Of a stretch of DNA of 64,000 nucleotides, positions 5,099-64,000 are shown piece after piece. Location of the stretch: positions 1-64,000 of the forward strand of contig NZ_SWJZ01000064.1 of assembly GCF_005144475.1 (NCBI RefSeq). Direction: 5' to 3'. Under the pieces are notes generated by a model, which ran no database searches, was not told the origin of the DNA, and saw only the letters and a program-made list of their open reading frames with translations. The DNA is from Rhodobacter capsulatus. Lineage in GTDB: Bacteria > Pseudomonadota > Alphaproteobacteria > Rhodobacterales > Rhodobacteraceae. Made by a program: the position numbers and the translations under genes. The stretch's first letter is position 1. The number at the start of each line of letters is the position of its first letter.

Positions 5099-5718
5099 TC
5101 ACGCTTGATATTTTCGCAGACCCGACGTGTCCGTGGTGTTATCTTGCCAAAGCGCAACTGGACCGTGCGCTGGAAGCACGTCCTGGTCACCCGTTTCTGA
5201 TCTCCTGGCATCCGTTTCAGCTCAACCCGACCCTGCCTTCCGAGGGCATGGACCGCGGTGCCTGGTTGCGCGCGCGGTTCGGTGCGCAAGCAGATCAGGC
5301 CGACCTGCCCGTGCTTGAAGCCGCCCGGACCGCCGGGGTTGCGTTGAACCTGCCAATAATCGCCCGCGTGCCCAATACGCTGAACGCCCATCGCCTGCTG
5401 CATTGGGCCGGGATCGAGGGCGCGCAGACCGCCGTCATGGCCGGTTTGCTGCGCGCTTATTGGCGGGATGGGCAGGATATCGGGCAGACCGAAAGCCTTG
5501 TGAAGATCGCCGCCGATGCCGGGCTGGAGCCGACCGTGATCCGTCGTCTGCTCGCCACCGATGCGGATATCGACACCATCAGCTCCCGCGCGGCCCATGC
5601 GCGCGAGCGCGGCATTGCCTCGGTTCCGACGTTCATTCTTGACACCGCCCATGTGATCACGGGCGCCCAGCCCGCCAAGCTCTGGATGCAGATCATCGAC
5701 GAGATCGCCGCGGCGTAG
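5095..5718 (+). CDS. DsbA-family oxidoreductase (FrnE/HCCA isomerase-like)
   Basis: This 207-residue protein has a thioredoxin fold with the active-site motif CPWC at residues 12-15 and the FADPTCPWCYLAK context of FrnE-like proteins. There is no signal peptide, so it acts in the cytoplasm, unlike periplasmic DsbA. The helical insertion (residues about 45-150) and the cis-Pro loop (GIASVPTFIL) match the group. The start overlaps the stop of the acyl-CoA ligase gene, which suggests a shared transcript and perhaps a joint detoxification or catabolic role. It terminates with TAG. Confidence 0.85.
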   Translation: MITLDIFADPTCPWCYLAKAQLDRALEARPGHPFLISWHPFQLNPTLPSEGMDRGAWLRARFGAQADQADLPVLEAARTAGVALNLPIIARVPNTLNAHRLLHWAGIEGAQTAVMAGLLRAYWRDGQDIGQTESLVKIAADAGLEPTVIRRLLATDADIDTISSRAAHARERGIASVPTFILDTAHVITGAQPAKLWMQIIDEIAAA

Positions 5719-5809
5719 CTGCGCAATCCTGCACGGCAATGTGCTGGACTGCGCTCTGGTTTTCGGCGCGCAGTCGGCTATGGTTCTGCGCAACCTTGAA
5801 AGGCTGTGC

Positions 5810-7027
5810 ATGTTTGACCCTCACGCATCTGCGGCGCCCGCCCGCATTCCCGTCTTCGAATTCACCGCGCTCATGGCGCTTCTGGCGGCCACGGTCGCTT
5901 TCTCGATCGATGCCATGTTGCCCGCGCTGCCCGAGATCGCGGCCAAGCTTTCTCCCGAAGCGATCAACCGCGCACAACTGGTCCTGACCTTCTTCGTCCT
6001 TGGCATCGGCGTCGGCACCTTCGTCGCCGGTCCGCTTTCGGATGCGATCGGGCGCAAGCGGACGATCGTCGTCGGCGTGAGCATCTTCGTGATCGGGGCC
6101 GTCATCGGGGCCCAGGCGCAAAGTCTCGAAGTGCTGCTGGCGGCGCGATTCGTTCAGGGCCTTGGCGCCGCCGCCCCGCGGATCGTGCCGATGGCGCTGG
6201 TGCGCGACATGTATTCCGGGCGCGAGATGGCCAAGGTGACCGCCTTCATCATGATGGTCTTCATCCTTGTCCCGGCGCTCGCCCCCTCGGCCGGACAACT
6301 GATCATCGGGGTCGCGGGATGGCGCGGCGTGTTCTATGCCTTCATCCTGTTTGCACTGATCGGCCTCGCCTGGCTCAGCCTGCGTCAACCCGAGACCCTG
6401 ACGCCCGAGCGGCGCCGCCCGCTGCGGGCGGCCTTGCTTTGGGCGGGGACCAAGGAGGTCCTCGGCGATCGCGACGTGCGGCTTTACATCCTGACGATGA
6501 CACTTGGCTTCGGACAGATGTTCGCGCTGCTTTCCTCGTCACAACAATTGTTTGCGGCCTTCGGTGCAGTTGAGAGCTTCCCGAAATGGTTCGCTTTGAT
6601 GGCGATTTTGGCGGGCTCCGGCACGGCTTTCAACGCGCTCTTCGTGATGCGTCTTGGGATGCGCAAGATGGTGCGGGGAACCTATATGATGCAGGTCGTC
6701 TCCTCGGGCGCGATGCTGGCGCTGGTGCTTGGCGGCGCGGTGACACCGCCGCACGGCTTCGTCTTCCTGTTTGCCTGGACGGTCACGGTCTTCATGATGG
6801 CAGGGATCACCTTTGGCAACCTGAACGCGCTGGCGATGCAGCGGATGGGCCATCTGGCCGGTCTGGCGGCCTCGGTCGTCTCGGCGCTCTCGACGATGGG
6901 CGCGGTGCTGATCGCCGCCCCGGTCGGGCTGATGTTCGACGGCACGGCCCTGCCGATCGTCGTCGCGACGCTGACCTGCTCGAGCCTTGCGGTGATCCTG
7001 ATGGGCCTCGTGCGCGAGAACGCCTAG
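5810..7027 (+). CDS. Bcr/CflA-type multidrug efflux MFS transporter
   Basis: This 405-residue major facilitator has about 12 hydrophobic segments and belongs to the DHA1 Bcr/CflA drug:proton antiporters. It carries the family signature between helices 2 and 3 (GPLSDAIGRKRTIV) and the opening PVFEFTALMALLAATVAFSIDAM characteristic of this group. The ATG at 5810 was chosen because it has GAAAGG upstream and starts just before the first helix; two upstream in-frame starts exist at 5741 and 5780. It converges with mfd, and the two stops are only a few bases apart. It ends with TAG. The exported compound is unknown. Confidence 0.85.
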   Translation: MFDPHASAAPARIPVFEFTALMALLAATVAFSIDAMLPALPEIAAKLSPEAINRAQLVLTFFVLGIGVGTFVAGPLSDAIGRKRTIVVGVSIFVIGAVIGAQAQSLEVLLAARFVQGLGAAAPRIVPMALVRDMYSGREMAKVTAFIMMVFILVPALAPSAGQLIIGVAGWRGVFYAFILFALIGLAWLSLRQPETLTPERRRPLRAALLWAGTKEVLGDRDVRLYILTMTLGFGQMFALLSSSQQLFAAFGAVESFPKWFALMAILAGSGTAFNALFVMRLGMRKMVRGTYMMQVVSSGAMLALVLGGAVTPPHGFVFLFAWTVTVFMMAGITFGNLNALAMQRMGHLAGLAASVVSALSTMGAVLIAAPVGLMFDGTALPIVVATLTCSSLAVILMGLVRENA

Positions 7028-53001: not shown

Positions 53002-53979
53002 ATGATCACTGCCACCCCGAACCGTTACGCGCTTCTGGCCGATATCGGCGGCACCAACACCCGGGTGGCGCTGTCCGAACACGGGCAGCTCCTGCCCGAA
53101 TCGATCCGTCGTTATGCCAATGCCGGGCGGCCCGCGCTGGAGCCGATCCTGGCGGAGTACATGCAGACCGAGGGCGTCACCGATCTGGCGGGCGCCTGCG
53201 TCGCCGCGGCGGGGCCGGTGCGCGATGGCGTGGCGCATATGACCAATCTTTCCTGGGTGATCGAAAGCGCCGCCATCGCCCACGTCACCGGCGCCGAGAC
53301 GGTTGCGGTGCTGAACGACCTGCAGGCGCAGGGCCATGCGCTGGGCCATCTTGCCCCCGGGGCGGTGGCGACCATCCTGCCCGGCCAGCCCGCGCGGCCC
53401 GGCTCGGCGCAGCTTGTCATCGGTGTGGGCACCGGCTTCAACGCCGCCCCCGTGCACGAGGCCCCGGGCGGACGCATCGTCACCGCCTCGGAATGCGGCC
53501 ACATCACCTTGCCCACCGTCACCGACGAAGACATCCGCCTGATGCGCTTTGTCGAGGCGGCGCATGGCTTTGCCGCGGTCGAGGACGTGCTGTCCGGCCG
53601 CGGTCTCGAACGTGTCTTCGCCTTCGCCGCCGCCGAGGCCGGGCAGCCGCAAAGCCGCACCGCCGCCGAGGTGATGGCCGAAATCACCGGCCGCAGCCCG
53701 CTTGGCCTGGAAACCGCCCGCATCTTCGTGCGCCATCTCGGCGCGGTCGTCGGCGATCTGGCGCTGATTCACCTGCCCTTCGGCGGCATCCATCTGTGCG
53801 GCGGCGTCGCCCGCGCCTTCACCCCGCTGCTGGCCGAGTTCGGAATCGCCGCGGCGATGCAGGCCAAGGGCCGGTTTTCCGACTTTCTCGCCGCTTTCCC
53901 GCTGCGGGTGATCGAGGATGATTACGCTGCCCTCGTCGGTTGTGCCGCGCATTTGCACGCCTGCGCCCCGCGGATCTGA
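53002..53979 (+). CDS. glk: glucokinase
   Basis: This 325-residue kinase phosphorylates glucose to glucose 6-phosphate. The phosphate motif ADIGGTNTRVAL (residues 13-24) and the EC-type ATASECGHI-like segment (TASECGHI) mark the non-ROK bacterial glucokinase family. It begins one base after the beta-glucosidase stop and would trap glucose released by AglA and the GH1 enzyme. Confidence 0.9.
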   Translation: MITATPNRYALLADIGGTNTRVALSEHGQLLPESIRRYANAGRPALEPILAEYMQTEGVTDLAGACVAAAGPVRDGVAHMTNLSWVIESAAIAHVTGAETVAVLNDLQAQGHALGHLAPGAVATILPGQPARPGSAQLVIGVGTGFNAAPVHEAPGGRIVTASECGHITLPTVTDEDIRLMRFVEAAHGFAAVEDVLSGRGLERVFAFAAAEAGQPQSRTAAEVMAEITGRSPLGLETARIFVRHLGAVVGDLALIHLPFGGIHLCGGVARAFTPLLAEFGIAAAMQAKGRFSDFLAAFPLRVIEDDYAALVGCAAHLHACAPRI

Positions 53980-54126: not shown

Positions 54127-54402
54127 ATGACCACGATTGCCCTCGCCTCCCGGCTCGACCTGTCTCAGGTCACACCGCTCGCCACGGCCTTGCGCGGTGC
54201 GGCCGGTGCCGATCTCGTCCTTGATGCCTCGGCCGTCACCCATCTGGGCGGTCTTGCGCTGCAAGTCCTCGCTTCCGCCGCCAAAAGCGCCCGGCAGGCC
54301 GGAACTTCCCTCATCATCACGCCGCGTTCGGAGGCTTTCGACGACGCTCTTGCCGTCTTCGGAGTGACCGCCGCGGATCTTCAAACCGGAGAGGCCGCAT
54401 GA
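54127..54402 (+). CDS. STAS-domain protein of the chemotaxis operon
   Basis: This 91-residue protein has the STAS fold of anti-sigma factor antagonists and MlaB-like proteins (ASRLDLSQVTPLATAL, then LVLDASAVTHLGGLALQVLASA). The usual phosphorylatable Ser after D(A)S is in DASAVTHLGG. It overlaps the next cheY by ATGA, so it is part of the operon. STAS proteins occur in several alphaproteobacterial che operons, but their role there is not established. Confidence 0.8.
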   Translation: MTTIALASRLDLSQVTPLATALRGAAGADLVLDASAVTHLGGLALQVLASAAKSARQAGTSLIITPRSEAFDDALAVFGVTAADLQTGEAA

Positions 54403-54764
54403 GCCTGACTGTTCTGGCGGTCGATGACAGCCGCACCATCCGCGACATGCTGAAACTCGCGCTGACCGACGCGGGGATCACATTGCATCTCGCCGAAGAC
54501 GGGGTCCACGGGCTCGAAGTGCTCGACGGCATCGCCCCCGATGCGATCATTTCCGACATCAACATGCCGCGCCTTGACGGCTTCGGCTTCATCGAGGCGG
54601 TGCGGGCGCAAGACAAGCACCGGGCGACGCCGATCCTCGTGCTGACCACCGAATCCGCCCCGGAACTCAAGGCACGCGCCCGTGCCGCCGGGGCCACCGG
54701 CTGGATCGTGAAGCCTTTCGACCCGCCGAAGCTGGTCAAGGCGCTGCAAATGGTTACCGGCTAA
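54399..54764 (+). CDS. cheY: CheY-type single-domain response regulator (first copy)
   Basis: This 121-residue receiver has the acidic pair Asp9-Asp10, phospho-Asp53 (AIISDINMPRLDG), the conserved Thr (LVLTTE) and Lys in IVKPFD. No output domain is present. It lies between the STAS gene and cheA. It may signal to the flagellar motor or act as a phosphate sink. Confidence 0.88.
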   Translation: MSLTVLAVDDSRTIRDMLKLALTDAGITLHLAEDGVHGLEVLDGIAPDAIISDINMPRLDGFGFIEAVRAQDKHRATPILVLTTESAPELKARARAAGATGWIVKPFDPPKLVKALQMVTG

Positions 54765-54774
54765 GGAGAGCGTG

Positions 54775-56979
54775 ATGGCAACGGACCCGATGGCAGAAAT
54801 CCGGGCCAGTTTCTTCGTCGAATGCGAAGAACTGCTCGAAAGCCTGCAGGATGCCCTGTCCGACATGGACGAGGGCAACCATGACAACGAGACGATCAAC
54901 ATCGTCTTCCGCGCGGTCCATTCCATCAAGGGCGGCGCGGGAGCTTTCGGGCTTGACGCGCTGGTCGGTTTTGCCCACCGCTACGAAACCGTGCTGGACG
55001 AACTGCGCTCGGGCCGGATGACGATCACGCCCGAGGCGATGAAGCTGTTCTTCCAGGCGGCCGACTTCCTGCAAGACCATGTCCGCGCCGCGCGCGATGC
55101 CGCCCCCCCGCCCGATGGCTCGGAGGATTGCCTCGTCGCGCTCGAAGCGCTGATCGGCGGCGGCGCCGGTCCCGCGGTCGAGGAAGACGTGAGCGATTTT
55201 CAACCGATGGGGCTCGCCTTCGATTTCGGCCCTGTCGAAACAGCCACGGCGACCCCGGTCTGGACGGTGCGCTTCCGTCCCGCGGCGGCGCTTTACAGCT
55301 CGGGCAACGAGCCGCTGCACCTGTTGCGCGCGCTTGGCAAGCTGGGCGCTGGCATCACGCGCTGCGATCTGACGCGTCTGCCGACGCTTGAAGCCCTCGA
55401 CCCAGAGAGTTCCTGGCTCGAATGGACGGTCGAAATCACTGGCGACGTGACCGATTTCGACATCCGCGAGGTCTTCGACTTCGTCGAGGATGTCTGCGAA
55501 ATCGAGATCATCAACGGCGCGGCCGACACGGCGCTTTCCGATCCGGGCGGGTTCCCGCTGCCGGAGGTCGACGCCCCCGGGCTGCCCGATCTGCCGCCGC
55601 TGGCGCAGGATCCGCAAGACCCGGTTCCGCTTGCCCCCGCTCCGGCGCCGCAAGCCGAAATCGTCCCGCTGCCGAAGTCCGAACCCCGGGCCGAGGTCAC
55701 TCCGCCCCCTTTTGTCGCGGTTGACCAGGCGGCGGCACCGGCTGGCGGCGCTGCGCCGCGGGAAGCCGCGTCCGAGCCCTCGGCGACGGTGCGGGTCGAT
55801 CTCGACCGCATCGACCGGCTGGTCAACCTTGTTGGCGAGCTGGTGATCAACTAGGCGATGCTGGCGCAAAGCGTGGCCGAGGCCGGGCTGCCGCCGAATT
55901 CGGCGGTGATGACCGGGCTTGAAGCCTTCATGATGCTGACCCGCGACATCCAGGACAGCGTGATGATGATTCGCGCCCAGCCGGTGAAGCCGCTGTTCCA
56001 ACGCATGGCGCGGATCGTGCGCGAAGCCTCGGGCGCGGTCGGCAAGGAGGTGCGTCTGCGCACCGAGGGCGAGGCGACCGAAGTCGACAAGACGGTGATC
56101 GAACGGCTCGCCGATCCGCTCACCCACATGATCCGCAACGCCGTCGATCACGGGCTCGAGCGGCCGGACAAACGCCGCGCCGCGGGCAAGACCGCCGAAG
56201 GGGTGATCACGCTCTCGGCCCAGCATCGCTCGGGCCGGGTGGTGATCGAGGTTGCCGATGACGGCGCCGGGATCAACCGCCCGAAAGTGCGCGAAATCGC
56301 CATCTCCAAGGGGCTGATCCCGCCGGATGCGCAGCTGAGCGACAGCGAGATCGACAACCTGCTGTTCCTGCCCGGTTTTTCGACGGCGGATCAGGTCTCG
56401 GCCCTGTCGGGTCGCGGCGTCGGCATGGATGTCGTGCGCCAGGCGATCCAGTCGCTCGGCGGTCGCATCACCATCCATTCCGAACCCGGCAAGGGCACGC
56501 GCTTCTCGATCTCGCTGCCGCTGACGCTGGCCGTTCTCGATGGCATGGTGGTGAATGTGGCGGGCGAAACCCTTGTCGTGCCGCTCTCGGCGATCCTTGA
56601 AACCGCCACGCTGACCGACGAGGACATCCGGGCGCTTGGCCCGAACACCAACGTGATCCATGTCCGGGGCGCCTTCGTGCCGCTTTACGATCTGGGGGCG
56701 GAACTTGGCTACCGCGCGCCGAAATCCAGCTATGCCGGTGGCATCGTGCTGCTGACGGCGCAGGAAAATGGCACCCGTTCGGCCCTTGTCGTCGATTCGA
56801 TCCTCGAACAGCGGCAAGTGGTGATCAAGGGGCTGCAGCGCAGCTACGGCCATATCCCCGGCGTTGCCGCCGCCACCATCCTTGGCGATGGCCAGATCGC
56901 CCTGATCCTCGACCCGCCCGATCTTGTTCAAAACGCTTCCGGACGTACCCGGAGCCCAGCCTTCGCTCTTGCAGGATGA
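54775..56979 (+). pseudogene. cheA: cheA histidine kinase interrupted by an in-frame amber codon
   Basis: The frame would give a 734-residue CheA. The P1 domain has phospho-His49 (AVHSIKGGAGAF), a middle P2-like region with a Pro-rich linker follows, then the dimerisation helix, HATPase (NAVDHGLERPDKRRA, DDGAGI, GRGVGMDVV) and the CheW-like P5 domain. Codon 360 (55852-55854) is TAG inside LVNLVGELVIN-stop-AMLAQ, where CheA proteins have Gln. CAG to TAG is one C-to-T change. The second half stays open and in frame to 56979, with a possible restart ATG at 55858 that lacks a ribosome site. The truncated product would lack the kinase domain. Confidence 0.85.
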
Positions 56980-57452
56980 CCGCCATGCCCCTGGAAAAAA
57001 GCTCGCAAAATTCCTCCGAAGTCGAACTCCTGTCCTTCCGGCTTGCCGACTAGGAATACAGCGTCGACATCATGTCCGTGCGCGAAATCCGCGGCTGGAC
57101 CCGCGCGACGCCTCTGCCGCATGCGCCGATGCATGTGCGCGGCGTGATCAACCTGCGCGGCACCGTGCTGCCGGTGGTCGATCTGTCGGTCCGGCTCGGC
57201 ATGGAACCGGTGGTGGGCGATGCCCGCAATGTCATCATCGTGGTGCAGGTGGGGTCGCAAACCGCGGGCCTGCTGGTCAACGCCGTCTCCGACATCCTGG
57301 CGCTGCCGCGCACCGAACTGCAGCCGCCGCCGGAACTGGCGGCCGATTGCGCCCACAGCTTCATCGAGGCGCTGACGATCGTCGACGGTCGCATGATCCG
57401 TGTGCTCGACCTCAGCGCGGTGTTGCCGGACGAGAACGCCGAGGCGGCATGA
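56976..57452 (+). pseudogene. cheW: cheW coupling protein interrupted by an in-frame amber codon
   Basis: The frame overlaps the cheA stop (ATGA) and would encode a 158-residue CheW that links receptors to CheA. Codon 26 (57051-57053) is TAG in FRLAD-stop-EYSVDIM, where CheW proteins have Gln or Glu (FRLADQEY). Downstream the frame is open and shows VREIRGWT, GVINLRGTVLPVVDL and QVGSQTAGLLVNAVSDI, all intact. An ATG at 57072 could start a fragment lacking the first strands. As in cheA the defect is one C-to-T change from CAG. Confidence 0.83.
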
Positions 57453-58327
57453 CACAGCATCATCCCCACCTGGCGGTTCCCCCCGCTCCGAGCGAAAGCG
57501 AACTGACGGCGATCGCCCGCGTTCTCTATGAGCAGGCCGGGATCGTCCTTGCACCGGGGAAGACCTCGATGGTGCAGTCGCGGCTTGGCAAACGCCTGCG
57601 CGCTCTCGGCCTGAAGGACTATGGCAGCTACATCCGCCTGATCACGTCGGACGAGGGTCACGAGGAACGCCGTGCGATGGTCTCTGCCCTGACCACGAAT
57701 GTCACGCAATTCTTCCGCGAGAACCATCACTTCGAGACCCTGCGCTCGACCACCCTGCCGCCGTTGATCGAACAGGCGCGTGCGGGCAAGAAAGTCAGGA
57801 TCTGGTCGGCGGGGTGCTCGACCGGGCAGGAAGTGTTCTCGATCGCGATGGTGCTTGCCGACATGGCGCAGGATCTGGCCCGGCTCGACATCCGGTTGCT
57901 GGCCACCGACATCGATCCGCAGATGATCGCCCGCGGTCGCGCGGCGGTCTATGAAGAGAACACCCTCGCGACGATCCCGAAGCCGCTGCAACGCTTTGTC
58001 AGCGTCGAAAGCGACGGCGTGCATATCGTGCCGATGTTGCGCAACCTCGTGTCCTTTCGCGAGCTGAACCTGCACGACACGACCTGGCCGATGCGCGGCC
58101 GGTTCGACGTCGTCTTTTGCCGCAACGTCGTGATCTATTTCAGCCCGGAAGATCAGCTGCGCCTTTGGCGTCGCTTCGAATCGGTGCTCACTCCTGGCGG
58201 ATGGCTCTTCGTCGGTCATTCCGAACGCATCCCGCTCGACCCGCCCTGCCAGCTCTCGACAGCCGGCATCACAACTTACAAGCTTCCCAAAGCGGAAAGC
58301 CCGATCGGAGGCCCGAAATGGCACTGA
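57449..58327 (+). CDS. cheR: chemotaxis protein methyltransferase CheR
   Basis: This 292-residue SAM-dependent enzyme methylates glutamates of chemoreceptors. It has an N-terminal helical domain (TTNVTQFFRENHHFE), the SAM motif WSAGCSTGQEVFSIAM, ATDID, and FDVVFCRNVVIYF. It overlaps cheW by ATGA and the next cheY by 10 bases. The frame is intact despite the two defective genes upstream. Confidence 0.95.
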   Translation: MTQHHPHLAVPPAPSESELTAIARVLYEQAGIVLAPGKTSMVQSRLGKRLRALGLKDYGSYIRLITSDEGHEERRAMVSALTTNVTQFFRENHHFETLRSTTLPPLIEQARAGKKVRIWSAGCSTGQEVFSIAMVLADMAQDLARLDIRLLATDIDPQMIARGRAAVYEENTLATIPKPLQRFVSVESDGVHIVPMLRNLVSFRELNLHDTTWPMRGRFDVVFCRNVVIYFSPEDQLRLWRRFESVLTPGGWLFVGHSERIPLDPPCQLSTAGITTYKLPKAESPIGGPKWH

Positions 58328-58704
58328 GAGATCAATTGAGGGTCATGGTCGTGGACGACATGTCCACCAGCCGAGGTCTGATCACGCAAGCGCTGGACGC
58401 GATGGGCATCCGTCAGGTCGGCTATGCGACCGACGGGCCGGGGGCGCTGCAAATCCTTGAAAAGACACCGGTCCATCTGGTGATCTCCGATTACAACATG
58501 CCCGGAATGGATGGGCTGCAGCTGCTGCACGCGCTGCGCACCAATCCGCGCACCAAGGGGCTCGGCTTCATCCTGATCACCGGCCGCGCCGATCGCGAGA
58601 TCATCGACACCGGCAAGCGTCTCGGGATGAACAACTTCCTGAAAAAGCCGTTCACGCCGCAGGAGCTGCGCAGCTGCATCGAAGCCGTGGTGGGTCGGCT
58701 ATGA
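58318..58704 (+). CDS. cheY: CheY-type single-domain response regulator (second copy)
   Basis: This 128-residue receiver has Asp13-Asp14, phospho-Asp58 (LVISDYNMPGMDG), Thr in FILITG and Lys in FLKKPFTP. It is more typical of motor-binding alphaproteobacterial CheYs than the first copy. It overlaps cheR by 10 bases and the next gene by ATGA. Confidence 0.9.
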   Translation: MALRDQLRVMVVDDMSTSRGLITQALDAMGIRQVGYATDGPGALQILEKTPVHLVISDYNMPGMDGLQLLHALRTNPRTKGLGFILITGRADREIIDTGKRLGMNNFLKKPFTPQELRSCIEAVVGRL

Positions 58705-59090
58705 CTGACCTCCCCAGCATCGCATCCATCCCCATCGAGCGAAGAGATCTTCCGCTTGACGCCCTTGCCGCGCGCATCGGCGATGAACTCGACACGCTCG
58801 CCCGGCTCTCGTCGGAGGTGCAGCGCGCGATCTCGCTGTGCCATTTCGCCGATCACACCGACGCGGCCGCGATCCGCGGCTTGCAGGGGATCGACCGGAT
58901 CACCCAGGCGCTGGAGGATCTCGGCCGTCTGATGTCCGCCGTGTCGACGGAAATGCCGCAAGACGTGAAGCTTCATGCCGTGCCGATCCTGTCGCGCCTG
59001 CGCCTGCACGAGCTGGCCACGAACCTCGACCCCGAGATGCAACGGCACGAGGTCCAGCAAGAAGAACAAGGGGAGATCCAGTGGTTCTGA
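58701..59090 (+). CDS. hypothetical protein at the end of the chemotaxis operon
   Basis: A 129-residue soluble, mostly helical protein I do not recognise. The N-terminal third is unstructured-looking. The middle (residues about 40-80) is a helical heptad region (LARLSSEVQRAISLCHF, then GIDRITQALEDLGRLMSAV), and the C terminus is acidic and ends EIQWF. It is coupled to cheY by ATGA. By position and helical content it could be a CheY phosphatase or scaffold, but no CheZ or CheX motif is visible. Confidence 0.7.
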   Translation: MTDLPSIASIPIERRDLPLDALAARIGDELDTLARLSSEVQRAISLCHFADHTDAAAIRGLQGIDRITQALEDLGRLMSAVSTEMPQDVKLHAVPILSRLRLHELATNLDPEMQRHEVQQEEQGEIQWF

Positions 59091-59291: not shown

Positions 59292-59807
59292 TCAGAACAG
59301 TTCGACGCCGTTGCCCGCCGCCTGCACCGGCGGGGTTTCGACGACGCGGGTCTCGCCCAGCAGCCGCTGCCGCGCCCGGCCGGTTCCGGGCCAGAACTCG
59401 ACCCGGCGCGCCTGCGTCCCGCCCAGGCTCTGCCCGGTGCATTCGATCCCCTCGCGGCGCAGGAAATCGAGCACGAATTCCGCATTCTTCTGCCCGATGT
59501 CGGTCAGGCCCGCGATCATCCGCCCGCCGCCGAACACCTTTGCCTTCAAGCGCTTGCGATTGGCGCCATCCTTGATCAGCGCGTTGATCAGCAATTCCAT
59601 CGCATTGACGCCGAAACGGGCGGAATTGAGCGAGGCCCCCGCGCCATCGGGCAACAGGAAATGGTTCATCCCGCCGACCTGACCGCTCTCGTCATAAAGG
59701 CAGGTCGCCACGCAGGACCCGAGAATGGTCGAGATTGACGCCTCTGCCCCCTTCGCGGTGATGAACTCGCCCTGCGCGATATGGAGGGTTTTATGATGTC
59801 CTGCCAT
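59292..59807 (-). CDS. cheD: chemoreceptor glutamine deamidase CheD
   Basis: This 171-residue enzyme deamidates receptor glutamines. Catalytic Cys32 (ILGSCVATCLYD) and His49 (GGMNHFLLP) are present, along with the FGGGRMIAG segment. It begins two bases from the cheB stop and shares its transcript. It is on the opposite strand to cheA. Confidence 0.94.
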   Translation of the reverse strand: MAGHHKTLHIAQGEFITAKGAEASISTILGSCVATCLYDESGQVGGMNHFLLPDGAGASLNSARFGVNAMELLINALIKDGANRKRLKAKVFGGGRMIAGLTDIGQKNAEFVLDFLRREGIECTGQSLGGTQARRVEFWPGTGRARQRLLGETRVVETPPVQAAGNGVELF

Positions 59808-59809
59808 GG

Positions 59810-60856
59810 TTATTCCCCCCGTGACGATTTGAACTGCATTTGACTGCCGGCACACAATTGCAACACCGACTGGGACATCTTGCCGATCGGCACTGCCTTT
59901 TCGGCGGCCCCGATCTCAAGCGCCGCGCGCGGCATGCCGAAGACGACACAGGTCGCCTCGTCCTGCGCAAGGCAGCGCGCCCCGGCCTGACGCAGGCGCT
60001 TCATCGCTTCCGCACCATCGCGTCCCATCCCGGTGAGCATCACGGACACCACCTTCTGCGCGATCGGCACGGCAGATTCAAACAGCACCTCGACCGAAGG
60101 CCGGTGGCCGTTGCGCTTGTCACTGGCGACAAGCTTGCAGCGCGGCGGATCTGCGGGGCTGACCGCCAGATGGTAATCGCCCCCCGGCGCCAGATAGACC
60201 TTGCCCGGCAAAAGCGGGGCCCCGTCGCGGGCAAGCTCGACCGTGGGCACCATCCGCCCATCCAGACGCCGGGCAAAACTGGCCAGGAAGCCCTCGGGCA
60301 TGTGTTGGGTGATCAGGGTCGGCGGGCAGTTGCGCGGATAGCCCGAAAGCAGCGTTTCCAACGCATCCACCCCGCCGGTCGAAGACCCGATGAGCACGCA
60401 TTTTCCATTCCACTTGAAGTCTTCGGCGGGCGCGATCTGCGCGCGCGGCCCCGGGCTGCGTAACCGCGCATTCGCCGCCGCGACCAGCAGTTCGGCCAGG
60501 TTCAGGAACGTGTCCGAGAGCCGGTCGAAGCTCGGCTTGCCGACGCATTCGACCGCGCCGAGCGACAGCGCTTCCAGCGCCGCGGCCGAGCCCTTCTGGG
60601 TCTCGGTCGAGATCATCACCACCGGCATCGGCCGCAGCCGCATCAGCTTTTCGAGAAATTCGAGCCCGTTCATCCGCGGCATCTCGACGTCAAGCGTCAG
60701 CACGTCGGGGGACAGGGCCTTGATCTTTTCCCGCGCCTCAAAGGGATCGCTCGCCTCGCCGACCACGACGATGCGCGGATCCGCGGCCAGCTTGGTCCGG
60801 ATCAAGGCCCGAATGGTCGGGGAGTCATCGACGATCAGAACGCGTTTCGGTGTCAT
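59810..60856 (-). CDS. cheB: receptor methylesterase/response regulator CheB
   Basis: This 348-residue enzyme removes methyl groups from receptors when phosphorylated. The receiver has phospho-Asp56 (LTLDVEMPRMNG). The esterase has the triad Ser159 (IGSSTGG), His185 (ITQHMP) and the Asp of MLTGMGRDGAEAM. Between mcp and cheD, it forms an adaptation operon on the minus strand. Confidence 0.96.
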   Translation of the reverse strand: MTPKRVLIVDDSPTIRALIRTKLAADPRIVVVGEASDPFEAREKIKALSPDVLTLDVEMPRMNGLEFLEKLMRLRPMPVVMISTETQKGSAAALEALSLGAVECVGKPSFDRLSDTFLNLAELLVAAANARLRSPGPRAQIAPAEDFKWNGKCVLIGSSTGGVDALETLLSGYPRNCPPTLITQHMPEGFLASFARRLDGRMVPTVELARDGAPLLPGKVYLAPGGDYHLAVSPADPPRCKLVASDKRNGHRPSVEVLFESAVPIAQKVVSVMLTGMGRDGAEAMKRLRQAGARCLAQDEATCVVFGMPRAALEIGAAEKAVPIGKMSQSVLQLCAGSQMQFKSSRGE

Positions 60857-60902: not shown

Positions 60903-63900
60903 TCAAAAGTCGACCCATTCGCTCCCATCTTCGGCAATCGCGAGCGCGCCGCGACTGCGCGGCGGCGCGGAGGCTTTGGGCGGGCGCAGCTTCACGGCGG
61001 GCGCGACGACCGCAGGCGGCGTCACGACCACTTCGGCGGGCTCGGGCGCCCGGAAACGCGCCGTGGTGGCGGTCAGCGCCTGCACCCCGCGGCTGAGCGC
61101 CTGCGCGGCGGCGGTGGTTTCCTCGAACATCGCGGCATTTTGCTGTGTGACCTGATCCAGCTCGATCATCGCGCGGTTGATCTCCGACAGGCCGGTCGAT
61201 TGTTCGCGCGCCGAGGAGGCGATCTTCGAGACCCGCCCGGAAATATCATTGACCGAGACCAGGATGCCATCCAGCGCCTGCCCCGTCTGACCGACCAGAT
61301 CGACCCCGACCTGCACATGATCCGACGAGGCGCTGATCAGGCCGGAAATCTCCTGCGCCGCGGCCGAGGAGCGCTGCGCCAGCGCCCGCACCTCCGAGGC
61401 GACGACGGCAAAGCCGCGTCCGGCCTCGCCCGCCCGGGCGGCTTCGACGCCCGCGTTCAGCGCCAGCAGGTTGGTCTGGAAGGCGATATCTTCGATCACC
61501 CCGATGATGCGCGAAATCTTTTGCGACGATTCGGCGATTTCGCCCATGGCGGAAACCGCCTCCTGCACCACCCGCCCCGAGCTTTCGGCGCCGATCCGGG
61601 CCCGTTCGACCACCTGATCCGCCTCGGAAATGCTCGCCGTGGCGGCGCCGATCGAGGTGGTCAGCTGATCCAACGCGGTCACCGTCTCGGCCAGCGTCGC
61701 CGCCTGCCGTTCGGTGCGCTGGCTCAGATCCGAGGCGGCATTGGTGATCTCGCTCACCTCGCCATCGATGCTTTGCGCATTGTCGATCACCACCAGCATC
61801 GCCGCGCCAAGCGTGGTGGCGGCATTGTTGAAATCGGTCCGCAGCTGTTCGTATTCGGGCGGAAACCCCCGCACGATCCGGCTGCCCAGATCGCCCCGGG
61901 CCAGATCTTCCAGACCGACCCGCAAGGCCTCGACCACGCCGCGCTGCTCGGCCAGCATCGTCTCGTTGCGCGCCCGCGCCAGCTCCAGCGCCGATTGCGC
62001 CTCGGTGATGTCATTGGCGATCAACACGATCTTGAGCATGTTGCCCGCCCGGTCCGGCACCGGCGTGACGCTGCCTTCGGCCACCACACGCGCGCCATCG
62101 GCGCGGATCAGCGTGAACCGGCCGATCACCGGTTCCAGCCGTTCCAGCCGCGCCCAGAACCCGGCCAGCGCCCCCTCGCCCTCGATCAGGCCCGCATGGC
62201 TGCGCCCGGTCAGCGTCGCCTCGGTCTCGCCAAGCGCCGCAAGCAGATTGGCATTGCCGCGCGCCACCCGACCCGCGGGCGAAAATTCGAGCATCAGCTG
62301 CGTGCTGTCGAGCGCGCTCAGCAGCGCCCGGGTCATCCGCAGCTCGGTCACGTCGCGCCATTCGACGACAAAGCCCAGCTGCGCGCCATCGGGGGTGCGA
62401 ATCTCGGAAAAATCGACGCCATAGCGCCCCTCGCCCACCGCGACATCGCGCCGGAACGGCAGTTGCGTCGGATCCTGCAGCCGCGCCTCGATCTCGGCGG
62501 TCAGCGGATAAAGCGCCGCAAGCGATTGCCCTACCAGTGTCCCGGCCTGAAGCTCGGGCTGACGGATACGGAAATCCGTCAGTTTCGCCTCCACCAGCTT
62601 GATCAGCGCCGTATTCACATAGGTGATGGTCAGATCGGAGCCGACCACCATCAGCGCCGCCGAGGAATTGCGAAACGCCGTCCCCTGCACCATCGCCGCG
62701 TGGCGCGTGGCTTCGGAGGCGGCCAGATCACCGCGCAGCGCCTCGACCGCCTGAGCGATCTCGCCGACCTCATCTTGCGATCCCGTCCCGGGCACGCGCA
62801 GCGCATGATCGCCCCGGCTGATCCGATTGACCGCCGCCGCCAGATCGTGCAGCGGACGGCCGATCCCGCGCGCCATCCAGGTCGAGATCGCCGCCAGAAC
62901 GGCAATCAGCAAAGCCGCATTCACGCCAAGCTTCCGCGCCAGTTCCCGCGCCGGGGCGAACAATTCGCGGTCGGATTGTTCGACCACCAGCGCCATCGGA
63001 CGCCCGAAAAGCTGCAACGGCGCATGAACGGCCAGAACGCTGCCACCGTCGACGCCCGTCTGCTCGATCCGCCCGGTTTCGCCCGCCAGCGCGGCCGTCA
63101 CGGCGGGGGTTTGCACCGGCGTTCCGGGCGGGACGGCCGCGCCCGCGCGCAGCTGCGTCTGCAAGATCCCGCTGCCATCGACCAGATAGGCCTGCCCGGT
63201 ATCGCCCAGCGATTGCGGGGCGGTGATCATCTGCAACAGCGGATCCAGTCGCGCCGCAAAGGCCAGAACGCCCAGCGAGACGCCTTCGGCGCTGCGCACC
63301 GTCTGCGCCAGATAGATGACCGGCGCACCGCCCGGCCCGGCAGCGACGAAATCGGAGATCTGCGGCACCTGATCGGGATTGGCCTGCGCCTTTGCGACAA
63401 CCTGGGCCAGCGGGCTTTGCTGCAGCGCCGGATCGGTCAGATCGGCGGCAAATTCCGGCCCCTTGCGCAGCGAATAAAGCACCCGCCCCTTCGGATCGAC
63501 AAAGAACAGATCGGCCAGACCGCGTTCCTTCGACTGCGTCACGAAACCCGGATGCGCGCGCCGGTGAATGATCCCGAAATCATTGATATCGCCTGCGAAA
63601 TCAAGCTTCCAACGCTCTGCCTCGGGGTTCGGGTTGGTCTCGACCCAGGCATGGCGCAGATTGTCGGCCGCGCCCGCGCCAAGCATCTTCCAGGCGCCCG
63701 AAAAATCGCGCATCAACCGCGCGGTCCCCTGATTGCCCGCCATCGCCCGCAGTTCCGACTGCACCTGATCGGCCCAGCCCTGCGCGCCTTGCGTCCGCGT
63801 CTGCAGCGCATGTTCAAGACGCTGGCTGCCCTGCTCCAGCAGCAGGTTGCGCGCCTCACGGTAAGAGGAAACCCCCATCACCGCGAGCGCGCCCACGGCA

Positions 63901-63959
63901 ATCGTCACCAGCATCAGGGGCAGCTTCAAGCGCAGCTTGAGGCTTTTGAGAAAGGGCAT
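60903..63959 (-). CDS. methyl-accepting chemotaxis protein with double-Cache-like sensor and two PAS domains
   Basis: A 1018-residue receptor. Transmembrane helix 1 is at about 13-33, followed by a periplasmic dCache-like sensor (about 40-340), transmembrane helix 2 (about 344-362), HAMP (about 365-417), two PAS domains (about 425-540 and 545-655), a second HAMP-like stretch (about 675-715) and the signalling domain (about 730-965). The hairpin tip is IAFQTNLLALNAGVEAARAG (residues 826-845). The last residues EWVDF fit the aromatic pentapeptide that binds CheR/CheB. The ATG at 63959 was chosen because GGAGATCC precedes it. The gene reads into cheB. Confidence 0.9.
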   Translation of the reverse strand: MPFLKSLKLRLKLPLMLVTIAVGALAVMGVSSYREARNLLLEQGSQRLEHALQTRTQGAQGWADQVQSELRAMAGNQGTARLMRDFSGAWKMLGAGAADNLRHAWVETNPNPEAERWKLDFAGDINDFGIIHRRAHPGFVTQSKERGLADLFFVDPKGRVLYSLRKGPEFAADLTDPALQQSPLAQVVAKAQANPDQVPQISDFVAAGPGGAPVIYLAQTVRSAEGVSLGVLAFAARLDPLLQMITAPQSLGDTGQAYLVDGSGILQTQLRAGAAVPPGTPVQTPAVTAALAGETGRIEQTGVDGGSVLAVHAPLQLFGRPMALVVEQSDRELFAPARELARKLGVNAALLIAVLAAISTWMARGIGRPLHDLAAAVNRISRGDHALRVPGTGSQDEVGEIAQAVEALRGDLAASEATRHAAMVQGTAFRNSSAALMVVGSDLTITYVNTALIKLVEAKLTDFRIRQPELQAGTLVGQSLAALYPLTAEIEARLQDPTQLPFRRDVAVGEGRYGVDFSEIRTPDGAQLGFVVEWRDVTELRMTRALLSALDSTQLMLEFSPAGRVARGNANLLAALGETEATLTGRSHAGLIEGEGALAGFWARLERLEPVIGRFTLIRADGARVVAEGSVTPVPDRAGNMLKIVLIANDITEAQSALELARARNETMLAEQRGVVEALRVGLEDLARGDLGSRIVRGFPPEYEQLRTDFNNAATTLGAAMLVVIDNAQSIDGEVSEITNAASDLSQRTERQAATLAETVTALDQLTTSIGAATASISEADQVVERARIGAESSGRVVQEAVSAMGEIAESSQKISRIIGVIEDIAFQTNLLALNAGVEAARAGEAGRGFAVVASEVRALAQRSSAAAQEISGLISASSDHVQVGVDLVGQTGQALDGILVSVNDISGRVSKIASSAREQSTGLSEINRAMIELDQVTQQNAAMFEETTAAAQALSRGVQALTATTARFRAPEPAEVVVTPPAVVAPAVKLRPPKASAPPRSRGALAIAEDGSEWVDF

Positions 63960-64000
63960 TCCGGATCTCCAGCGCAGCGCCCGGGCGGGCAAAACGAGGC

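Follow-up and report, generated by a model that had tools for sequence, protein, structure and literature searches.

Two adjacent chemotaxis genes in a strain of Rhodobacter capsulatus, a photosynthetic and harmless bacterium, each contain a premature in-frame TAG; the genes are cheA and cheW. Neither stop occurs in any of the relatives examined (88 distinct sequence contexts for cheA, 91 for cheW), and both lie in coding sequence that was under constraint on either side until recently. We consider it probable that the stops have recently, and in a strain-specific manner, inactivated the main kinase complex of chemotaxis, encoded by cheA and cheW.

Results

The window and its nearest relatives

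The window, i.e. the whole 64,000-nucleotide stretch analysed here, is part of contig C134. The draft genome totals 4,224,534 bases, spread over 170 contigs, and belongs to a strain of the R. capsulatus group. Among the 17 other genomes of the genus that were searched, G002 and G003 were the nearest relatives (94% over the che region). The regions compared shared about 92-94% DNA identity with these two, and the window matched G003 at 92-93% across nearly its entire length. The G003 chromosome, which we take to be that of R. capsulatus SB 1003, comprises 3,738,958 bases; L035 is the che locus of R. capsulatus DSM 1710, and G002 was taken as the corresponding genome. At 4.22 Mb, compared to about 3.7 and 3.9 Mb in the two nearest relatives, the draft genome is the larger one, so that several hundred kb of extra DNA may be present.

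cheA and cheW are interrupted within an otherwise open che region

The sequence-only reading had described an in-frame TAG in both cheA and cheW, and this was borne out; each stop is flanked on either side by a long open frame with homology (Table 1). The cheA stop is codon 360 of 734, after which the frame remains open up to the TGA at 56977-56979; the cheW stop is codon 26 of 158, followed by an open frame to the end of the gene. The two genes are also coupled neighbours as had been noted, as the cheW ATG at 56976 overlaps the end of cheA. In CheA, the stop falls within the dimerisation domain PF02895, 24 of whose 68 positions precede it; at an E-value limit of 0.001, PF02895 did not match the downstream fragment. 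The sequence past the cheA stop encodes HATPase_c and CheW-like domains. An ATG is located one codon past the cheA TAG (55858), and another one 18 bases past the cheW TAG (57072).

The surrounding che and receptor genes, encoding two CheY-like regulators, CheR, CheD, CheB and a receptor, are open and match their families almost in full, again in agreement with the earlier description. The intact che operon of DSM 1710 matches the window colinearly at the DNA level from 54399 to 58704 (via G002). Unlike the window strain, DSM 1710 has no stop at either site, and its protein is identical to that of the window strain along the cheA frame past the stop.

Table 1 Features of the che region within the window
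Feature	Coordinates	Strand	Remarks
Small ORF upstream of cheY, open	54127..54402	+	From the ORF list; aligned to relatives; STAS-like by eye
CheY-like response regulator, open	54399..54764	+	PF00072; 0 amino-acid differences to three relatives
cheA N-terminal part, Hpt (P1) and start of dimerisation domain	54775..55854	+	Ends at TAG 55852-55854
Premature TAG, cheA codon 360	55852..55854	+	Gln in relatives
Remaining cheA frame, HATPase_c and CheW-like domains, open	55855..56979	+	ATG at 55858
cheW N-terminal 25 codons	56976..57053	+	Ends at TAG 57051-57053, codon 26
Remaining cheW frame, open	57054..57452	+	ATG at 57072; PF01584 positions 17-136 of 138 from there
cheR, open	57449..58327	+	PF01739 and PF03705
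Second CheY-like regulator, open	58318..58704	+	PF00072
129-aa ORF, no Pfam match, constrained	58701..59090	+	pN/pS 0.04-0.09
cheD, open	59292..59855	-	PF03975
cheB, open	59810..60856	-	PF01339 and PF00072
Methyl-accepting chemotaxis receptor, open	60903..63992	-	dCache, HAMP, PAS and MCP signalling domains

The sequence past both stops is fully constrained

Over the 506 codons past both stops, the window strain and DSM 1710 differ by 48 synonymous and no amino-acid changes (36 synonymous and 0 nonsynonymous differences in cheA; 12 and 0 in cheW). The same was observed in comparison to G003, with 45 (cheA) and 19 (cheW) synonymous and no nonsynonymous differences. Rows of this comparison that were out of frame (ROK/glk), that looked wrongly matched or truncated (cheB-viridis) or that had no match were left out. 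The corresponding upstream/downstream pN/pS values are 0.18/0.00 for cheA and 0.21/0.00 for cheW. Neutrality along the whole of the strain's own branch predicts about 72 amino-acid changes past the stops, of which none was observed. Taking the own branch as half of the pairwise distance, with equal branches assumed, the time without selection amounts to at most about 4% of that branch. Hence, either the stops are very young or the downstream sequence is still used, and any loss of function would be very recent. As a separate observation, cheA is far less conserved before the stop (window 54775-55851) than after it, with 34.5 versus 0 nonsynonymous differences from G003.

The two stops replaced different residues

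Both stops had been described as lying at Gln codons. This holds for cheA, where the site encodes Gln in 87 of the 88 distinct non-own contexts (CAG 68, CAA 19, GAG 1; 105 rows, loci L006-L114), the GAG exception being L034, a distant paralogue with 35% identity. It does not hold for cheW, where the site encodes Glu (or Asp) across the genus; of the 15 genomes in which the gene is present (L006-L020), 7 carry GAG, 6 carry GAA and 2 carry GAT. These 15 remained from the 17 non-own genus genomes searched, as two gave only about 30 matching bases. Gln is dominant at the cheW site only among more distant relatives. The broader tally comprises 91 distinct contexts from 98 rows (L006-L114), with CAG 53, GAA 12, GAG 11, CAA 8, GAT 2, AGC 2 and one each of CAT, GAC and CAC; it counts 18 genus rows, three genomes being counted twice. 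Among the 91 distinct alignments of relatives, a single one, that of L074 (Paracoccaceae bacterium MAG), has an internal stop in cheW.

To judge from these sequences, the ancestral residue near the window strain is Gln in CheA and Glu in CheW. The cheA change is a C-to-T transition, and that in cheW is a G-to-T transversion relative to the nearest relatives. Common C-to-T mutagenesis, which had been proposed for both genes, does not fit this pattern, and a shared C-to-T mutagen was rejected for cheW on the basis of the Glu or Asp at this site in the genus. With differing ancestral residues, the chief argument for one shared cause, such as a tRNA that inserts Gln or mutagenesis from C to T, falls away.

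cheA and cheW are the only well-supported interruptions in the sampled genes

A scan for interruptions by codon usage alone returned 25 candidates, neither che stop being among them, and was replaced by comparison with a relative, in which ORFs called in stretches of G003 were compared with stretches of the window strain. In the first pass, 386,000 bases from G003 were compared with 785,900 bases from the window strain; among 284 genes it yielded 18 stop rows, with TAG only in cheA and cheW. The wider census tested 311 genes, 308 of them with a pN/pS under 0.5 (108,516 codons), from stretches making up about a fifth of the own genome; the coding sequence compared was about 326 kb, or 8%. Its 17 stop rows consisted of the two che genes and 15 non-TAG rows (14 TGA, 1 TAA). 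In 13 of these 15, the upstream pN/pS was 0.7 or more; these rows lie either within the first 82 codons of the called ORF, likely before the true start, or, in three cases, in one likely antisense ORF with a whole-gene pN/pS of 1.04. The other two, at reference codons 20 and 37, fall into alignment gaps and have few codons and upstream pN/pS values of 0.36 and 0.46, and we tentatively read them as start-site differences. Within the 308 constrained genes (about 8% of the genome), cheA and cheW are accordingly the only well-supported mid-gene interruptions with coding support on both sides, and a genome-wide surplus of in-frame TAG where sense codons are conserved, as had been conceived, does not appear in this sample beyond the two che genes.

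In the reverse comparison of own ORFs against G003, the wider set gave 9 rows with one TAG, in an ORF that also has a TGA and whose upstream part is very short, and the first pass gave 9 rows with two TAG. The first pass further showed 9 frame changes in the own genome and 6 in the relative. In contig C109 at about 53,008-53,725 (L166:13008-13725), codons 1-127 of a 255-codon reference gene aligned in one frame and codons 141-255 in another, which may reflect a frameshift in the window strain.

The chance of a second interrupted gene falling beside the first is about 2/307, so that the stop pair points to the chemotaxis pathway. That both stops are TAG is unremarkable; by single-base routes from the DSM 1710 sequence (76 of 134 in cheA, 10 of 26 in cheW), the chance of this is about 0.22.

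UAG appears to be read as a normal stop codon

A tRNA reading UAG as Gln had also been suggested. No tRNA with a CUA anticodon was found by an RNA family search and an ARAGORN reading of the scanned loci. The family search returned 41 tRNA matches in the own genome with an E-value limit of 0.001 and 44 with a limit of 10; this inventory is incomplete, as the search overlooked tRNA-Tyr, and the own loci yielded no tRNA for Ile or Gln(CTG). Since tRNA-Tyr was missing, we added pattern scans based on a standard form of anticodon loop and T arm that matches 38 of 38 distinct tRNAs read. Scanning the own genome for a CUA loop gave two matches, one inside a tRNA-Arg(TCT) and one not called a tRNA, and a GUA loop gave 11, including a tRNA-Tyr with a normal GTA anticodon. 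RF1 (prfA) is intact, with a match of 466.9 bits that is over the cut-off and no internal stop. Of the ORFs called, 43 of 609 end in TAG in the sample from the window strain, possibly including the cheA fragment, versus 23 of 401 in G003. In the window, the TAG triplets previously pointed out as ordinary terminators are present at 5716-5718 and 7025-7027, and the latter ends the ORF 5741-7027.

We therefore rejected UAG suppression or recoding, based on the tRNA results, RF1, terminator use and the lack of further interruptions by TAG among the genes sampled. Beyond the stops themselves, these data lend no support to suppression by a tRNA that reads UAG as Gln, one of the two sites not being Gln to begin with. 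The sequence-only reading had stated that this would be ordinary strain-specific inactivation if suppressor tRNA and other TAG interruptions were lacking and wild isolates had CAG at both sites. The first two are largely what was found within the sample; at cheW, the relatives carry Glu, not CAG.

Flagellar genes and a second chemosensory cluster

Eight flagellar or motor genes were examined in all. Those for FliP, FliN, FliF, FliL and MotA (contig C160, near 105-111 kb) and those for FlhA, FliR and FlhB are open with family matches. A second chemosensory cluster is located on C43 at the contig end (L003:980-2230, L168:13607-19035) and comprises two CheW, CheR, CheB, a receptor and a CheA-like kinase, of which the 417 residues sampled, up to the contig end, are open.

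Discussion

Our findings suggest that the main chemotaxis kinase complex of this strain was lost recently, by two independent single-base nonsense changes that would have inactivated cheA and cheW, one gene and then the other. The cheA stop would spare the Hpt (P1) part of the protein and take away P4 (kinase) and P5 (coupling), so that no phosphate should reach CheY from the CheA kinase. The stop in cheW would leave a peptide of 25 residues and thereby eliminate the coupler between receptor and kinase. A loss of CheA and CheW function is thus suggested by the domains that are lost, and the cell may still be swimming yet not steering through its main che pathway. Two points run counter to such an inactivation. 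Once one protein of the complex is lost, a second change should be neutral, missense being the likelier kind, and two nonsense changes exceed what is needed; in addition, zero amino-acid change downstream would also be expected if readthrough or restart kept the proteins functional.

Loss of genes for motility or chemotaxis in single strains is a known kind of event. The window strain resembles such cases in that a dispensable behaviour would have been inactivated recently by point mutation, and in the open state of the examined apparatus genes, but differs in having two changes in one complex. Selection against chemotaxis in the strain lineage, as envisaged in the sequence-only reading, fits the data as a possible cause. 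Selection on chemotaxis may have been relaxed, or may have turned against it, during cultivation or not long before the strain was isolated; a laboratory origin of the stops is only a guess. Neither of two R. capsulatus genome announcements (PMC3924369, PMC4901235) mentions the stops or the cheA and cheW genes, and no published description of the stops was found among the papers listed in a search by title and start of abstract, the coverage of which excludes most subscription literature.

Three other explanations have to be weighed against this loss of function. A wrong base in the consensus at either or both stops, from sequencing or from assembly, would be compatible with a draft genome of 170 contigs, with differences of a single base each and with the perfect constraint past the stops. 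We consider such an error quite unlikely, as both stops fall into adjacent genes of one complex, where random errors would not cluster, and no further well-supported mid-gene stop was present among 308 genes. A suppressor tRNA or leaky reading of UAG that sustains both proteins at a low level would likewise agree with the perfect constraint, and with the use of TAG at both stops. This is nevertheless extremely improbable: neither family search nor ARAGORN nor pattern scan, on an incomplete inventory, found a tRNA with a CUA anticodon, tRNA-Tyr has a GTA anticodon, RF1 is intact, the share of TAG terminators is similar to that of the relative (43/609 and 23/401), and the residues at the two sites differ in the relatives.

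The third explanation is a split, working kinase. Here, restart at the ATG at 55858 would give a P4 and P5 fragment that phosphorylates the released P1 in trans, and a short CheW would restart at 57072. Both ATGs are suitably close, one codon past the TAG in cheA and 18 bases past that in cheW. The restart frames retain the HATPase_c and CheW-like domains of CheA and positions 17-136 of the 138 of the CheW fold, and they have no amino-acid changes past the stops. There is also precedent in that, according to two publications, the Hpt domain is functional in E. coli when released, and CheA3 and CheA4 form a two-part kinase in R. sphaeroides (PMC10782961, PMC3591291). Still, a split kinase seems quite unlikely. 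The break lies inside the dimerisation domain, the first fragment carrying 24 of its 68 positions, and not in a linker; the restarted CheW would be without its first 32 residues; both ATGs already belong to coding sequence, so no special reason is needed for their presence; and the cheA stop occurs in 0 of 88 distinct contexts of relatives. As in CheA3/CheA4 of Rhodobacter (Cereibacter) sphaeroides, Hpt and kinase are found on separate frames in one operon. CheA3 and CheA4 are described in these sources as two genes, with CheA4 having dimerisation, kinase and CheW domains, whereas in the window strain one gene is cut inside the dimerisation domain by a new stop and the kinase fragment lacks a whole one. 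It is very doubtful that one base substitution has only now divided CheA into a two-piece kinase, restarted at the ATG at 55858 and still in use, with CheW restarted likewise. If it were true, the strain would show, as an example from nature, how split CheA systems like CheA3/CheA4 might originate, and only if the split proteins are made and working would the stop pair matter more.

Under the preferred reading, the recent strain-specific loss of CheA and CheW, the finding is mainly a caution for annotation and for work on behaviour: this genome would be unsuitable as a chemotactic reference for its group. It also illustrates that paired nonsense changes are no evidence of recoding where the ancestral residues in the relatives differ.
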